Part shown: positions 3,770 through 33,480 of the stretch, piece after piece | Layout: each line of letters begins with the position of its first letter | Position numbering within the stretch: position 1 is the stretch's first letter | Assembly (NCBI GenBank): GCA_017858255.1 | Contig: JAFMBV010000026.1 | Coordinates: forward strand, 1-39,195 | Direction of reading: 5' to 3' | DNA from: Bacteriovoracaceae bacterium | Lineage (GTDB): Bacteria; Bdellovibrionota; Bacteriovoracia; Bacteriovoracales; Bacteriovoracaceae | Length of the DNA stretch: 39,195 bases | Translations under genes and position numbers: made by a program | The notes under the pieces: generated by a model | What the model saw: only the letters and a program-made list of their open reading frames with translations | What the model was told of the DNA's origin: nothing | Databases searched by the model: none

Positions 3770-6358
3770 TTAACCAGCTTCATTGGCAGCTTCTTTAGCT
3801 GCATCTTCGGCAGCAAAAGGAGTGATCGCGTAATCGACCTTATGCTTACACTTTGGACATTGAAGCTGCTTACCTTCTCTCTTTGTCTCTCTGTAAGTCA
3901 TGATACTAGAACCACAGCCTGGACAGTCGTACTCATAAGGCTTTGACCACAGAGCGTTTTCGCAATTCGGGTAGTGACTACAGCCATAAAAGAATTTTCC
4001 ATAGCGAGATTTTTTTTCAGCAAACTTACCGACCTTACATTCTGGACATGTAATTTGCAGAGTATAAGGAAGAGTCGTCTCACAATGAGGATAATCTTCA
4101 CAACGTACAAAACGGCCATACTTACCAGTTTTGACTTCAAGCTTTTTATTACAGGTTGGACATGGGTCGTGAAACCAGTTCTTAGGAAGAATTGTAATTT
4201 CTCCCTCAAGATTCTTTTTAAAATCATGAGTAGAGTTACAGTCTGGATAGTTACTACATGCTAGGAACTGACCATTTCGTCCCCACTTAATCGTATATTC
4301 TCCATCCTCACACTTCTTACAATTAATACCTGTAGGAATAGACTGCTTTTTGAGGTTTTTCATTTCCTCTTTAGCTTTTAGTAACGTTACTTCAAATCCA
4401 GTCCAAAATTCTTTGAGAACTTTTCTCCAACTAATTTCACCTTCTTCAATTTTATCGAGGAGCTCTTCAACTTGAGCCGTGAAATCAACATTCATCACAT
4501 CTGGAAAGGACTCAATCAACATTTTACAAACAACTGAACCTAGTTCAGTTGGAAGGAATCTGTTTTCAATTTTTTCGACATAACCTCTATCTTGAATATT
4601 AGAAATAATCGAGGCGTAAGTAGAAGGACGACCAATCCCCTTTTCCTCTAGGTCTTTCACAAGAGAAGCTTCATTATAGCGTGGGGGGGGTGAGGTCCAA
4701 TGCTCTGTTTCGATAGCATCTTTTAATGCTTTTAACTTTTCGTCTTCTTTTATTTCTGGCAAGAGTCCTGACTTGATATCATTCTCTTCATTATCCTCAT
4801 CATCGCCGCCTTTTTTGGAGCGCTTCTCTGCCATCGCTTCCAGATAAACGGTTCTAAAACCAGGAAACTTAATGATTGAACCATTGGCCTTAAAGAAATG
4901 ACCTTGATTTTCAAAAGTTACACTTGTTTGGTCGATAACAGCTTGGCTCATTTGAGAGCTGATAAATTTATTCCAAATAAGTTCATAAAGCTTTTGCTGT
5001 TCAGGCTCTAGATCACCACGAACTTCATCTGGTGTGTACAAGAGGTTTGTTGGTCTGATGGCCTCGTGGGCATCTTGAACTTTACTGGAACCTTTCTTTT
5101 TATAAGTATTAGGTTCACTTGGAAGATAATCTGGACCGTACTTATCCTTAATAAACTCTCTTAGAGAATCGAGGGCCTCCGGTGCCGTTCTGACAGAGTC
5201 AGTTCTCATATAAGTAATGAGACCTTCCATGCCGTAGTCTCGCAACTGGATACCTTCATAGAGCCTTTGGGCCACCATCATGGTTCTCTTTGCTGTAAAT
5301 CCTAATTTGTTGGCAGCTTCCTGCTGAAGTTTTGAAGTGGTAAAGGGAGGCGTAGGATTTTGCTTTCTCTCGCGCTTCTTAACATCAAGAACTTGATAAG
5401 GTTTGCCTTTAACATCGCTAACGATTTTTTTGACGACATCTTCTTCTGATAGCTCAGTCTTTTTATTGGCCTGCTCTCCATAGTATTTAAATTCAAATTT
5501 AGTATCTTGTTTTTCCATGATACCAGCGATGGAAAACCACTTTTCAGGTACGAAGGCCTTAACCTCATCTTCCCGCTCTACGATAATTCTAAGAGCAACA
5601 GACTGAACCCTACCCGCAGAAATACCTCTTTGTACTTTGTCCCAAAGAATAGGAGAAATTTTATAACCAACAAGACGGTCTAGTACACGACGAGTCTTTT
5701 GAGAGTCGTACATGTATTTATTTAACTTCGCAGGATTTGCAATCGCCTCCTGAACTGCTGACTTTGTAACGGCGTTGAAAACCACCCGATGAATCTTCGA
5801 AGGCTTACCAATTTCCTCCGCAAGGTGATGCGCAATAGCTTCTCCTTCGCGGTCCATATCGGGAGCGAGATAGATTTGATCTGCACCTTTAGCTAGTTGC
5901 TGAATTCTCTCAATCTTATCTTTTTTTCCAGTGATCGGAACGAGATCAATATCAAAGTTACTTTTGACATCGACTCCCAGTTTGGATTTGGGCAGATCCT
6001 TTATGTGACCGTTTGAGGCAACAACCTGATAACCTTTTCCAAGGTACTTTTTAATGGTCTTTGCCTTAGAGGGTGATTCCACAACCACGAGATGATAAGG
6101 TCCCTTAGGGATCTTGGTAACCTTGGCTTTTTTTCCAGAAGATTCTTCTGCAGCAGCCTCGGCTTTTGTAACTTTTTTACTAGTTTTTTTCTTGGCAACT
6201 TTTTTAGCGGTTTTCTTTTTGGCCACTTTCTTTTTGGCTGCTTTCTTGGCAGTTTTTTTCTTAGCTGTTTTCTTGGCAGTTTTTTTAGCTACCTTCTTAC
6301 TAGCTTTTTTCTCGCCGTCCGAGTTTTCACTCGGAGTATTGGCCGTTTCTTCCGTCAC
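3770..6358 (-). CDS. topA: DNA topoisomerase I with Lys/Ala-rich N-terminal tail
   Basis: A type IA topoisomerase that relaxes negatively supercoiled DNA. Residues 1-85 are an unusual tail built from AKK/TAKK/VAKK repeats (about 17-65) that resembles a histone H1 tail. The Toprim domain starts at about 88 (YHLVVVESPSKAKTIKKYLG, catalytic Glu94) with the DxDxE motif at Asp167/Asp169/Glu171. The active-site Tyr383 lies in GLITYMRTDSVR. The C-terminus carries four C4 zinc ribbons (about 675-850), each with a CxxC pair and a CxxYPxC-type pair; the last is more divergent. The start is GTG 6358 with GAAGG 9 nt upstream; an ATG 16 nt further upstream is out of frame and soon stops. A 79-nt acidic insert (DDEDNEENDIKSG, about 555) lies in the core. 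Confidence 0.97.
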   Translation of the reverse strand: MTEETANTPSENSDGEKKASKKVAKKTAKKTAKKKTAKKAAKKKVAKKKTAKKVAKKKTSKKVTKAEAAAEESSGKKAKVTKIPKGPYHLVVVESPSKAKTIKKYLGKGYQVVASNGHIKDLPKSKLGVDVKSNFDIDLVPITGKKDKIERIQQLAKGADQIYLAPDMDREGEAIAHHLAEEIGKPSKIHRVVFNAVTKSAVQEAIANPAKLNKYMYDSQKTRRVLDRLVGYKISPILWDKVQRGISAGRVQSVALRIIVEREDEVKAFVPEKWFSIAGIMEKQDTKFEFKYYGEQANKKTELSEEDVVKKIVSDVKGKPYQVLDVKKRERKQNPTPPFTTSKLQQEAANKLGFTAKRTMMVAQRLYEGIQLRDYGMEGLITYMRTDSVRTAPEALDSLREFIKDKYGPDYLPSEPNTYKKKGSSKVQDAHEAIRPTNLLYTPDEVRGDLEPEQQKLYELIWNKFISSQMSQAVIDQTSVTFENQGHFFKANGSIIKFPGFRTVYLEAMAEKRSKKGGDDEDNEENDIKSGLLPEIKEDEKLKALKDAIETEHWTSPPPRYNEASLVKDLEEKGIGRPSTYASIISNIQDRGYVEKIENRFLPTELGSVVCKMLIESFPDVMNVDFTAQVEELLDKIEEGEISWRKVLKEFWTGFEVTLLKAKEEMKNLKKQSIPTGINCKKCEDGEYTIKWGRNGQFLACSNYPDCNSTHDFKKNLEGEITILPKNWFHDPCPTCNKKLEVKTGKYGRFVRCEDYPHCETTLPYTLQITCPECKVGKFAEKKSRYGKFFYGCSHYPNCENALWSKPYEYDCPGCGSSIMTYRETKREGKQLQCPKCKHKVDYAITPFAAEDAAKEAANEAG

Positions 6359-24813: not shown

Positions 24814-25767
24814 TCACCAGTAGAACTTGCCGTAGCCCATCAATGGAGCAAGGTAGTAAGCAACAACCAATAAAAAAGAATATAGAATCATGTCACTAAT
24901 GAATTCAGCAAGAAGTGGCCTGACTCTATTTTCTAGCATCTCTAATAGCTTCTTTTTAAAGAAGAAGCTAATGACACAAATAAAACAGAATATAAGAAAA
25001 CCGATGACAACTTTTGAAATTTCTCCGAAATGGCCAGGTTTAGCGGCTTTGTCATTTATCTTTTTTTTTATAGATACTTCTGAAGAGGGTATATCTTCAA
25101 AAGACTTTTCAATTAGCTTTTCAGGAAGCTCTAGTTTTCCAGGCAGAATTTTTCTTTTGTTAGTGTAAAACCGGCTAAAAGCAGGTCTCGCATCAGTCGG
25201 GTTGGCCTCAATAATCACTTCGATATCTACTTTGTCACCAACAACCCAGCCTCCTTGATCCAAGGCCTTATTCCACGTCATATTAAAATCTTTTCTATAA
25301 AGTAAGGTTGATGCTTTGAGGAACAAGCTTTTCTTCTTTTTATCTACTGGGTCCTGATACTCCCCTTTCCAATCAAGGTTGAAACTATAGGGTTTTTCAA
25401 TACCTCGTACAGCTAGAGTGCCTTTGATTTTTGTAGGGACATCATCCTGGTAAATAACTTCTTTTCCAACAAATGTGATTAGGGGATATTTCGAAATATG
25501 AAAGAAGTCTTTTCGTCTTAAGTGATTATCCCTTTTTGGGTCTCGTGTATTAACAGAATTTACTAATATTTCAAACTCAACCTGGGAAAGTTTTTGTCCA
25601 TCCCACTCAAAAGCTCCTTTGAAATGGTCAAAACTTCCTTTAACAAGAGACACTTTCATGTAGTCTAATTCAAAGTTAACAAAGCTATGCTGATCATTCA
25701 CTACATAAGCTTTGGCAAGACCAACTTCACAATTAATTAGCGTGAGAAATATTAACCAAAATTTCAA
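24814..25767 (-). CDS. YceI-domain protein with C-terminal membrane anchor
   Basis: A 317-aa exported protein. After a signal peptide (about 1-17) comes a YceI-like lipocalin-fold domain (about 20-180; AYVVNDQHSFVNFELDY, GAFEWDG, KDFFHISKYPLITF), a fold known to hold polyisoprenoids or other hydrophobic molecules. A polar linker (about 200-240) leads to two C-terminal membrane spans (VIGFLIFCFICVISFFF and MILYSFLLVVAYYL). Standalone YceI proteins are soluble, so the anchor is unusual. The start is TTG 25767 with GGGGGAG about 7 nt upstream, just after the EVE stop. An upstream TTG at 25791 overlaps the EVE gene and has no RBS. Confidence 0.78.
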   Translation of the reverse strand: MKFWLIFLTLINCEVGLAKAYVVNDQHSFVNFELDYMKVSLVKGSFDHFKGAFEWDGQKLSQVEFEILVNSVNTRDPKRDNHLRRKDFFHISKYPLITFVGKEVIYQDDVPTKIKGTLAVRGIEKPYSFNLDWKGEYQDPVDKKKKSLFLKASTLLYRKDFNMTWNKALDQGGWVVGDKVDIEVIIEANPTDARPAFSRFYTNKRKILPGKLELPEKLIEKSFEDIPSSEVSIKKKINDKAAKPGHFGEISKVVIGFLIFCFICVISFFFKKKLLEMLENRVRPLLAEFISDMILYSFLLVVAYYLAPLMGYGKFYW

Positions 25768-25768
25768 A

Positions 25769-26233
25769 CTACTTCTCCCCCATTTTAACAATGTGTCTGA
25801 ACTCAGCAGCAGTAACAGGAGTAATGCTTAAACGAGTTCCTTTTTGAAGGATGGCCATGTTCCCTAATTTCACCTCATTTTTTAATACTTGGAGGGGAAT
25901 ATAAGTAGAGAAGACAGATTGGAACTTAACATCGACCATCATCCAACGAGGTTTTTCCTTGGTGGCCTTTTCATCATAGTATTTGCTGCTCTTTTTAAAT
26001 TGAAGGGGATCAGGGTATGGACGACTTGCAACTGTCATGGTCCCGGCCACTCCTGGTGGCCGTGTGCTTGAATGATAGAAAAGAACCTCATCACCGACAG
26101 ACATCTCATCGCGCATAAAGTTACGAGCTTGATAGTTACGAATACCTGTCCAAGCTTCAACCTTAACTCTTTTCAAATCTAGAATACTAAATTCATCTGG
26201 CTCAGATTTCATTAACCAATATTTTTTAGTCAT
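25769..26233 (-). CDS. EVE-domain protein
   Basis: A 154-aa single EVE-domain protein of the thymocyte nuclear protein 1 type. The signature KYWLMKSEPDEFSI at the N-terminus, WTGIRNYQARNFMRDEM and DEVLFYHSS...PGVAG are typical. EVE domains bind modified bases in nucleic acids and are often found near restriction or modification systems; none is here. It is in the speD-speE operon, 16 nt after speE. Cytoplasmic. Role in this operon is unknown. Confidence 0.93.
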   Translation of the reverse strand: MTKKYWLMKSEPDEFSILDLKRVKVEAWTGIRNYQARNFMRDEMSVGDEVLFYHSSTRPPGVAGTMTVASRPYPDPLQFKKSSKYYDEKATKEKPRWMMVDVKFQSVFSTYIPLQVLKNEVKLGNMAILQKGTRLSITPVTAAEFRHIVKMGEK

Positions 26234-27124: not shown

Positions 27125-28066
27125 CTAAATTAATTCTTTATAACGGTATACCTTTTCAGGCGCATCTGTTTTTTTATTATAATAGCGAAAGTGAACATCA
27201 TAACCAATATCAAGTTTGTCTTGAACATGAATTGTCTTCATGTAGTTATTCCCAAAATCAAACTCCGTTGAGCAGTTAAAGGTCATTACATCAAAAGAGA
27301 ATGGTCTAAGTATTTCCAGTATCTGATGTAAAAGAACCTGACTCTTTTCACAAATTTTAAGATTTGTCTCAAAGCTGATATAGGGACTGGTTTCTTGAGG
27401 AGTGACGTGTACAGTAAAGTAATCCTCTCCGCGAATTCCATTTAAGGAATAACCATAAGGTTTAAAAACAAAATCATCTAATTCAAACCCTGGTAAGAGC
27501 TCTTCAAATTGAAAGAGTTTGCGAATTTCTTCTTTTGTTAAATCTTCTCTCGTTAAAAAACTAATAACCTCGGGGGCCATATCATACATTAGTAACTCAC
27601 AAGTCCTATCCTCTTGAATGGGCTTGAAAGCTTTTGTTGTATGAAAGAGTTGTGTATGATGAGAGTGCATCTTCCCTAAACGAAGGGCCTCCCCTTCTAT
27701 TTGACCAGCAAGAAACTGAGCGTCTTGTATGAAGTCACTTGTCTGTAAATGAGATCGGTATTCATTCTTTCTCTGAAAAAATAAACAATCAACACTATCC
27801 TTACCCAATGAATCGATAAAGAACTCTGCTGATTTGATAAGCTTAGTCTGACCACAGGTAAGCATCAAAATACGATCATCCCAAACGAATAGGCTTGATT
27901 CACTTAAGAGAAAGGCGATTTGTTTATCGTTGCGAATACTTGAAAGAATTGTAGCTTCACAATTTTCCACAAGCTCTTTCCAAAAAGCCTCTGGCTTTTC
28001 ATATAAGGGCTGATGCTCTTTACTCACAATGATTTCTAATTTTTTTTCTGCACCTTCAAAAAACAC
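27125..28066 (-). CDS. speD: Eukaryotic-type S-adenosylmethionine decarboxylase
   Basis: A 313-aa pyruvoyl-dependent proenzyme that decarboxylates AdoMet for spermidine synthesis. It aligns along its whole length with the human AMD1 type, not with the short bacterial SpeD. Residues numbered from GTG 28066: N-terminal EGAEKKLE (Glu4, Glu7 like human Glu8/Glu11), self-cleavage site LSES with pyruvoyl Ser57, Cys71 in TCG (14 residues on, as Ser68-Cys82), PYGYSLNG (Ser229 equivalent), TVHVTPQ (His243 equivalent) and YISFETN (Glu256 equivalent). An in-frame TTG at 28072 touches the RBS, whereas GTG 28066 has GAGG 7 nt upstream. First gene of an operon with speE, EVE and YceI. Confidence 0.92.
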   Translation of the reverse strand: MFFEGAEKKLEIIVSKEHQPLYEKPEAFWKELVENCEATILSSIRNDKQIAFLLSESSLFVWDDRILMLTCGQTKLIKSAEFFIDSLGKDSVDCLFFQRKNEYRSHLQTSDFIQDAQFLAGQIEGEALRLGKMHSHHTQLFHTTKAFKPIQEDRTCELLMYDMAPEVISFLTREDLTKEEIRKLFQFEELLPGFELDDFVFKPYGYSLNGIRGEDYFTVHVTPQETSPYISFETNLKICEKSQVLLHQILEILRPFSFDVMTFNCSTEFDFGNNYMKTIHVQDKLDIGYDVHFRYYNKKTDAPEKVYRYKELI

Positions 28067-30814: not shown

Positions 30815-32194
30815 ATGGATTTAACTTCATTGAAGGAGACTCTTAAAAAGTCTCAGTATTACAGTGAGTTAAGAAGTCAGACCAACCGCGCCCATGTCTT
30901 GGCCCTTCTTAACGGAGACCTAGTTCAAAACCAAGAAAGTATGGATTCGGGACTTTCTTGTCGAACTTTCCACAATGGTGGCTGGGGTTTTGCTAGTTCT
31001 TCTTTGGCCGCCACTCAAACGGCCTCAGATCTATTGGCCAAGGCCGAGAGTAATGCTCTTTTTATGGCGAAGGCCTCAAAAGAAGCTGGAGTTACTAACC
31101 TTCCTGGTGGCATTCATTCCTATCAAAGACCTTATAAAGGAAAAGGAAGACTTGCGACTAAAGAACAAGTCGACTTTCTTCAAGAACTAAATAAAATAAT
31201 TAATGATAAGTATCCAGACTTAAAGTCAGTTCAATTATCTATCGCCTCTCATGAACTCGAAAAGACGATGGCCAACTCTCTTGGCTCTGAGACTTATCAT
31301 GTTCTTCCAAGAACTTCTTTTTACATTCAATTTTCTTATGAATTAGATGGTGAAGTTTCATCCCTTATGGATTTTTATGGTGACTTCGGTAGGACTGCTG
31401 ACATTATCACAAGGCCAGAAGATTTCTTAGAACGTCTTGAAACCCAATATAAACAAGTTCGTGACAAGGCCCATGGAGTTCACGCTCAAGGTGGAGTGAA
31501 AGACGTTATTATCTCTCCCGAGGTAACTGGCGTCCTTGCCCACGAGGCGATAGGCCACCCAGCGGAAGCAGACCTCGTCAAAGCAGGATCTGTTGCAGGT
31601 AATTATATTGGTAAAAAAGTCGCGAGTGATCTCGTCACCATGGTGGACTACGCTCATTCCTATGAAGGAAAAGAACTCCCCGTACCAGTCTATATTGATG
31701 ATGAAGGTGTAGAAGCAGTTGATGCTCCTCTTATTGAAAATGGGATCTTTAAAGGTTTTATGAATAATAGAGAACTAGCCGAACACTATGGTCACACGCC
31801 AACAGGGAATGCTCGTGCCTATGATTATTCTGATGAGCCTCTTATCAGAATGAGAAATACCATCATTCATCCAGGTAAGAGTAAAATTGAAGACATGATT
31901 GGTGCCATTGATGATGGTTACTACTTTATCCAAAGATCAAATGGTCAGGCTGATCTAACATCAGAATTTATGTTTGGTGTGACAATGGGTTATGAAATTA
32001 AGAACGGAAAACTTGGTAAGGCCATTAAAGACACGACTATTTCTGGAGTTGCCTTCGAAATGCTTAAAACAGTCGATATGGTTAGTGACGAGTTTCATGT
32101 AGGAACAACTGGTTTTTGTGGAAAAAAACAGCGCATGATTGTTTCTCATGGCGGTCCATCTTTAAAATGTCGTGTCCACGTAGGAGGTAGATAA
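30815..32194 (+). CDS. tldD: TldD-type metalloprotease subunit
   Basis: A 459-aa protein of the TldD/PmbA family. The zinc motif HEAIGH gives His243, Glu244 and His248 in the HExxxH arrangement of this family, in LAHEAIGHPAEAD. TGFCGKKQ and VSHGGPS are conserved near the C-terminus and supply a further ligand. TldD pairs with TldE to form a heterodimer that degrades unfolded peptides and processes RiPP leaders or CcdA. No RiPP precursor is seen nearby. The stop TAA and the next ATG share one base (TAATG), so translation is coupled. Confidence 0.94.
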   Translation: MDLTSLKETLKKSQYYSELRSQTNRAHVLALLNGDLVQNQESMDSGLSCRTFHNGGWGFASSSLAATQTASDLLAKAESNALFMAKASKEAGVTNLPGGIHSYQRPYKGKGRLATKEQVDFLQELNKIINDKYPDLKSVQLSIASHELEKTMANSLGSETYHVLPRTSFYIQFSYELDGEVSSLMDFYGDFGRTADIITRPEDFLERLETQYKQVRDKAHGVHAQGGVKDVIISPEVTGVLAHEAIGHPAEADLVKAGSVAGNYIGKKVASDLVTMVDYAHSYEGKELPVPVYIDDEGVEAVDAPLIENGIFKGFMNNRELAEHYGHTPTGNARAYDYSDEPLIRMRNTIIHPGKSKIEDMIGAIDDGYYFIQRSNGQADLTSEFMFGVTMGYEIKNGKLGKAIKDTTISGVAFEMLKTVDMVSDEFHVGTTGFCGKKQRMIVSHGGPSLKCRVHVGGR

Positions 32195-33480
32195 TGAATC
32201 TTATAGAAATTTCCCAACAAGGACTAAAAGAGCTCTCTGAAAATGGGGCTCAATCAGCGAGTGTAATTTCAGGTCACACAAGTTTTGATGAACTCGTTTA
32301 TGAAAATGATAAGTTTACTTTACTTCGATCAGTTGATGAATATAGCACCAGCTTAACGGCACTTATTGAAGATAAGAAAGGTGGATATTCCATCAATCAG
32401 CTCTCCCCTAGCGAACTTAAAGTTGCCGGTAAAAAGACGCTTGAAATAGCCAATGCAGGAAAACCAGATCCAGCCTATGCTATAAGTGAAGGTCCAAAGA
32501 AAATGGAATTTGCCCATGGCCCAGAAGTCGCGGACAAAGAGGCCATGCTTAATATGATCCAAAAATTTGTTGCTGATTCAGCAAAAGCATTTCCTCTGAT
32601 TGGGTTACGTTCTGTGACTGCAAAATTTACTCAAGGGAAAACACATTTTCTAAATTCAAATGGCGTCGAGGCGAATGCAAGAAAGGGATATTATACTTTT
32701 AGCGTTCTCTTCAATGCACAAGATGGAGAGAAGTCCTCTTCCATGAATTATGATGGACTTAATTTTCTTGATTTTGATATCGACCTCTTAAGTGATGAGC
32801 GCTTTGGTAGAACTTTTAAAGACACCATCGCCCACCTAGATGCAGAGAAGTTAGGAAAAAGCGTAACAGGTAAAGCAATTTTTATGCCTTCTTGTTGGCA
32901 GGGGTTTATTTCCTATGCTCTCGGCCACTTAGGTACAGGTAGCCTTGTTTCAAAGACTAGTCGTCTACAAGGTCGAATCGGTGAAAAAGTCGCAAGCCCT
33001 CTAATGCACTTAGAATCTCGTCCTCAGGATCCAATGTTTGCGAACCCCAACTTTCTCACAGGAGATGGGATTGAGACGGAAAATCAAACTATTTTTGATC
33101 ATGGTGTTTTAAAAACTTACCTCCTTGATCTTTACGGTAAGAATAAGCTCAATGAAGGGAAAGTCTCAAATTTTGCGACCCGCCTTTATATGCCAAAAGG
33201 AGAATCAACCTTGGATGAAATGATCTCCGGTATTGATGAAGGTATACTCATCGGTCGTTTTTCAGGTGGATATCCTAATACTAATGGCGATTTCTCTGGG
33301 ATTGCTAAAAATAGCTTTCTTATTAAAAATGGTAAGATAGACAAAGCACTTAGTGAAACGATGATCTCAGGTAATTTATTTGAGGTTATGGAAAAAATAT
33401 ATGCCACCAGTAAAGAAGTTTATGAAAATGGAACCTGCCATATTCCCTATGTGGCCTCTGACAATATTTCGATAAGCTAA
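32194..33480 (+). CDS. pmbA: TldE/PmbA-type protease subunit
   Basis: A 428-aa protein of the PmbA/TldE group, partner of TldD. It lacks the HExxxH motif, as expected for the non-catalytic subunit. Typical features are SNGVEAN-type (LNSNGVEANARKGYY), FMPSCWQGFISYALGHLG, SRLQGRIGEKVASPLM and the C-terminal GNLFEVMEKIYATSKE. It starts at the A of the tldD stop. It ends just before a strong terminator. Together they form a two-gene operon. Confidence 0.94.
   Translation: MNLIEISQQGLKELSENGAQSASVISGHTSFDELVYENDKFTLLRSVDEYSTSLTALIEDKKGGYSINQLSPSELKVAGKKTLEIANAGKPDPAYAISEGPKKMEFAHGPEVADKEAMLNMIQKFVADSAKAFPLIGLRSVTAKFTQGKTHFLNSNGVEANARKGYYTFSVLFNAQDGEKSSSMNYDGLNFLDFDIDLLSDERFGRTFKDTIAHLDAEKLGKSVTGKAIFMPSCWQGFISYALGHLGTGSLVSKTSRLQGRIGEKVASPLMHLESRPQDPMFANPNFLTGDGIETENQTIFDHGVLKTYLLDLYGKNKLNEGKVSNFATRLYMPKGESTLDEMISGIDEGILIGRFSGGYPNTNGDFSGIAKNSFLIKNGKIDKALSETMISGNLFEVMEKIYATSKEVYENGTCHIPYVASDNISIS

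Follow-up and report, generated by a model that had tools for sequence, protein, structure and literature searches.

A class 2 (eukaryotic-type) AdoMet decarboxylase gene beside spermidine synthase in a Bacteriovoracaceae bacterium, and its relatives across Bdellovibrionota

How does a bacterium come to encode an AdoMet decarboxylase (AdoMetDC) of eukaryotic type, and does the enzyme serve spermidine synthesis there? The gene in question, speD, lies in the window, by which we mean the whole 39,195-nucleotide stretch of Bacteriovoracaceae DNA that was analyzed. Its open reading frame begins with a GTG at 28066, preceded by GAGAGAGGA, ends with a stop at 27125-27127, and encodes 313 aa; the start position is common to its relatives (MFFEGSEKK...).

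The product belongs to the class 2 form. PF01536 was its sole Pfam match (E=2e-53; 182 bits, cut-off 22.2), and its top PDB match was human AdoMetDC (E=6e-36). The score against the NCBIfam AdoMetDC equivalog TIGR00535 was 122.1 bits, below the cut-off of 233.15, and the class 2 assignment therefore rests on PF01536, fold and residues. Profile searches for class 1 SpeD (PF02675) gave no match in the product or anywhere in the genome, which carries one PF01536 match. An AlphaFold2 model built with 45 homologues (pLDDT 91, pTM 0.91) aligned end to end with the full human proenzyme (1jl0; TM 0.85/0.86), versus a TM of 0.27, normalized to the window protein, for the one-domain SpeD of T. maritima. 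The modeled chain contains two fused AdoMetDC domains and one LSES cleavage site. The difference between the two TM scores indicates a fused two-domain enzyme rather than a short SpeD, in line with the original prediction.

We then aligned the product, numbered from GTG=1, with human, potato and T. brucei sequences verified against PDB and with 81 bacterial rows. Glu4 and Glu7 correspond to human Glu8 and Glu11; Ser57 of the LSES motif corresponds to Ser68, with predicted self-cleavage between Glu56 and Ser57; Cys71, 14 residues past Ser57, corresponds to Cys82; Asp153 and Glu157 correspond to Asp174 and Glu178; and Ser207, His220 and Glu233 correspond to Ser229, His243 and Glu256. Human Glu8, Glu11, Ser68, Cys82, Ser229 and His243 are all present, and are invariant across the 81 bacterial homologues. 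The alignment thus contains the paired N-terminal Glu, the LSES site and the Cys 14 residues on that had been read from the sequence; the Ser, His and Glu expected in the C-terminal half are likewise there as Ser229, His243 and Glu256, but the AdoMet-binding Glu247 is replaced by Gln (Q224). Four of the five listed AdoMet-binding residues (F7, L65, E67, F223 and E247; PMC3686867) are therefore present. The same Gln occurs in 62 of the 81 bacterial homologues, and Gln and Glu versions are both found in speD-speE pairs; judged from sequence, AdoMet binding may differ in the Gln version. In the putrescine-site set, E15, D174, T176, E178, E256, F111 and F285 are present; Leu stands at K80 and Lys at L13, the latter position being occupied by Arg in potato and T. 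brucei.

The gene heads the order speD-speE-EVE-YceI that had been described for this locus, with all four genes on the minus strand (Table 1). speE begins 8 bases past the speD stop and encodes a stand-alone protein that scores above both equivalog cut-offs, and is of bacterial type by its top PDB matches, 1iy9 and 1inl, which we take to be the B. subtilis and T. maritima entries. In our neighborhood table, speE lies directly downstream of speD at almost every Bdellovibrionota locus. EVE is kept as third gene in most Bacteriovoracia loci and was not seen in that position in the loci of Bdellovibrionales families f11 and f17 or of Gammaproteobacteria, and the YceI gene stays next to speD-speE in the closest relatives only; given these narrow ranges, EVE and YceI are probably neighbors rather than components of the pathway. 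The YceI-domain protein is extended at its C-terminus by about 125 residues, among them hydrophobic stretches resembling membrane spans.

Table 1. Coordinates and supporting evidence for speD and the genes that follow it.
Feature	Coordinates	Strand	Evidence
Class 2 (eukaryotic-type) AdoMet decarboxylase proenzyme, speD	27125..28066	-	PF01536, PDB, AF2 model, catalytic residues
Spermidine synthase, speE, 288 aa	26250..27116	-	TIGR00417 326 bits (cut-off 249.55), PRK00811 360 (cut-off 260)
EVE-domain protein, third gene	25769..26233	-	PF01878 E=4e-52
YceI-domain protein with C-terminal extension	24814..25791	-	PF04264 E=7e-35, residues 29-196 of 325

Elsewhere in the window, a Topoisomerase I (3770-6358, minus strand) has a lysine/alanine-rich repeat tail of KKAAKKK type before its Toprim domain. 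On the plus strand, 30815-33480 holds a TldD/PmbA-type metallopeptidase gene (30815-32194) and, directly adjoining its end, a gene for 428 aa that may be its partner.

We next determined the distribution of the class 2 form. The closest named relatives of the window protein are Bacteriovoracaceae/Bacteriovoracia MAGs at 89% identity. Scanning GTDB contigs revealed 338 encoding loci, with patterns drawn from the window's relatives that may miss other phyla. The best 80 of these 338 came from Bdellovibrionota, marine Gammaproteobacteria (Shewanella, Ferrimonas, Colwellia, Thalassotalea, Kangiella, Marinomonas, Endozoicomonas and Grimontia), one Kordiimonas, and one MAG labeled Myxococcota, whose speD groups among Bacteriovoracia. 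Of 369 Bdellovibrionota genomes covered by our family search, 91 carry PF01536, with 90 scoring above the cut-off; they belong to families f1, f11, f12, f15, f17, f20 and f21, alongside weak partial matches in f19. In evenly drawn samples of 274 gammaproteobacterial and 289 alphaproteobacterial genomes, PF01536 occurred only in the centre genome. No class 2 match was found in phages, plasmids or IMG/VR, and we rejected viral or plasmid carriage on this result, which agrees with the published finding of no class 2 form in viruses (PMC9992855).

Sister genera without the class 2 gene often carry a class 1a-like (E. coli-like) SpeD of 258-273 aa, and PF02675 was not found in five class 2 genomes outside Bdellovibrionota; class 2 and class 1a SpeD appear to replace each other among genomes. 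Among same-family genera without class 2 speD, four loci (L134, L135, L136 and L140) encode the E. coli-like class 1a protein, the L136 copy being divergent from speE. We had considered the SpeD proteins of sister genera, 258-292 aa long, as SpeD-SpeD fusions ancestral to class 2, and discarded the idea, as by eye all four that were read look class 1a.

A tree of the 81 bacterial sequences with human, potato and T. brucei, unrooted and with no outgroup, had only Bdellovibrionota on its deeper bacterial branches, and identity within this phylum falls to 37%. Gamma- and alphaproteobacterial copies fell in two separate places inside the half of the tree that holds Bacteriovoracia. A single transfer into Pseudomonadota was rejected (AU p=0.018 for all gamma and alpha copies as one clade, a grouping chosen after seeing the tree). 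In a quick speE tree (supports 87-90), the adjacent speE of the Colwellia-Thalassotalea-Kangiella-Kordiimonas group lies beside that of the Bacteriovoracaceae locus L039, as does its speD, which suggests that the two genes would have moved as a pair. In the same tree the speE of the Shewanella group is unrelated and gamma-type, so there speD was probably transferred without speE. Gammaproteobacteria and Kordiimonas probably obtained class 2 speD from the Bdellovibrionota group. We conclude that class 2 AdoMetDC has a long history in Bdellovibrionota and is common there, and that the window gene was inherited within the phylum and is no recent gain from a eukaryote. One class 2 sequence, L013 (genome G049), has a very long branch (1.91 changes per column) with its catalytic residues present, and a change of function is possible.

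The phylogeny that the original prediction had called for placed the eukaryotes outside all 81 bacteria (95/99); being unrooted, it accommodates both origins offered there, an interdomain transfer and an ancient bacterial branch that gave rise to the eukaryotic form. An alternative placement of the bacteria among the eukaryotes gave AU p=0.37. Human AdoMetDC is 38% identical to L092 and L112 of Bdellovibrionota and 36.5% identical to the potato enzyme; since the human protein is as near to some Bdellovibrionota as to potato, any interdomain transfer would probably be old. A recent transfer from one eukaryotic lineage was rejected, since the distances to human, potato and T. brucei are about equal and the tree within Bdellovibrionota is deep.

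A single old transfer from a eukaryote into Bdellovibrionota, or near the base of the phylum, is somewhat more likely than not as the source of the bacterial family. This is the published view for bacterial class 2 enzymes: the passage of PMC10407285 that cites Li et al. 2019 reports class 2 AdoMetDC in some bacteria and takes phylogeny to indicate a eukaryotic source, and the same paper sees in class 2 an apparent eukaryotic invention, derived from the fusion of class 1b-type domains. It is consistent with class 2 being general among eukaryotes and of patchy occurrence in bacteria, missing from many Bdellovibrionota and from nearly all sampled gammas, and with an adjoining speE of bacterial type, beside which speD could have been inserted. 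Against it, the bacterial sequences are no nearer to one eukaryote than eukaryotes are to each other, and the 81 bacteria form one side of the tree, although both the distances and the tree would be compatible with a stem eukaryote as donor.

The reverse direction, a bacterial origin of class 2 AdoMetDC (in Bdellovibrionota or an ancestor of the phylum) with later acquisition by eukaryotes, we regard as a minority reading. The deep bacterial diversity, spanning several families, the shorter and plainer bacterial protein, and the eukaryotes forming a single side of the tree all point this way. However, the eukaryotes are represented by three long branches only in an unrooted tree, an alternative position of the bacteria among them was not rejected by the AU test, and rate differences could mimic depth. 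That eukaryotes owe their enzyme to a bacterial class 2 form with living relatives in Bdellovibrionota, and did not invent it and pass it on to bacteria, is rather doubtful.

Whichever the direction, we are confident that speD encodes a working class 2 AdoMetDC that feeds the neighboring spermidine synthase, and that it was inherited within the phylum, with the gammaproteobacterial and Kordiimonas copies probably coming from there. The proenzyme is predicted to fold as two fused AdoMetDC domains. We infer that it would cleave itself before Ser57, with residues 1-56 becoming the beta chain and the pyruvoyl group sitting on the alpha chain, and would decarboxylate AdoMet with Cys71 as putative proton donor. 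Decarboxylated AdoMet would be supplied to SpeE, which would transfer the aminopropyl group to putrescine, itself probably made from arginine through SpeA and agmatinase. SpeA (714 bits, cut-off 624) and agmatinase (218, cut-off 174) are encoded side by side elsewhere in the genome, and the route from arginine through agmatine and putrescine to spermidine is complete on paper, by gene content. The earlier argument from the speE neighbor to real spermidine synthesis thus describes the likely role, with SpeA and agmatinase in the genome and no other SpeD.

It is improbable that the protein is a class 2 homologue serving some other role, with another substrate or as partner of an MFS-SpdSyn fusion. 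Such a role could be read from the change of Glu247 to Gln, from SpeD homologues elsewhere that changed substrate and have arginine or ornithine decarboxylase activity (PMC10407285), and from the SpeD-membrane and membrane-SpdSyn fusions of relatives. But speD adjoins a gene for a stand-alone SpeE that exceeds both equivalog cut-offs, it is the sole SpeD of a genome that already encodes SpeA, and both Gln and Glu versions sit in speD-speE pairs. In the Bacteriovoracia relatives G020, G026 and G033 (loci L137, L138 and L139), a short SpeD domain is fused to a multi-span membrane domain, and the next gene encodes a second membrane protein, which in L138 continues into a spermidine-synthase-like domain, an arrangement resembling AdoMetDC plus MFS-SpdSyn systems; G026 and G033 have class 2 speD as well as the fusion. 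Eukaryotic contamination or assembly error we discount almost entirely, as speD is intron-free, the gene pair is the same in six congeners and in dozens of independent assemblies including isolates, and the other scanned genes of the 39 kb contig are bacterial-type.

Our literature search found no paper linking Bdellovibrio or Shewanella with class 2 AdoMetDC. The abstract of Li et al. 2019 (Biochem J 476:2579) reportedly describes the bacterial class 2 enzymes as functional and phylogenetically limited. Bacterial class 2 AdoMetDC is already published (PMC10407285), and the window gene is an ordinary enzyme in an uncommon but known form. What we add is its breadth in Bdellovibrionota, the location of the deepest bacterial diversity in this phylum, and apparent onward transfer to marine gammas. 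Its occurrence in about a quarter of sampled Bdellovibrionota provides a sequence set for testing, with better eukaryotic sampling, the claim of a eukaryotic invention, and the bacterial enzymes are simple models of a human drug-target enzyme.

Among known systems, human AdoMetDC (AMD1; 1msv, 1jl0) resembles the window protein in its full-length two-domain fold (TM 0.85), 32% identity and LSES site, with E8, E11, C82, F223, S229, H243, E256, D174, E178, F285 and Y318 common to both; the window protein is about 20 aa shorter and has Gln, Leu and Lys for human E247, K80 and L13. The bacterial class 2 enzymes mentioned in the passage of PMC10407285 that cites its ref. 46 (Li et al. 2019) share a eukaryotic-type enzyme in a bacterial host, and the window speD differs in sitting with a stand-alone speE. 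Class 2 speD products of Shewanella, Ferrimonas and Colwellia (L034, L030, L075 and others) are 42-48% identical to the window protein and alike in catalytic residues; the Colwellia-Thalassotalea-Kangiella-Kordiimonas group has the speD-speE pair, like the window, whereas Shewanella has a speE-speA-speD-speB run with the unrelated gamma-type speE. Finally, the class 1b and 1a SpeD proteins (T. maritima 1vr7 and E. coli SpeD) have pyruvoyl chemistry in common with it and match one of its halves in domain fold, but are single-domain proteins (TM 0.27 of the query) without a sequence match, and stand in for class 2 in the sister genera.
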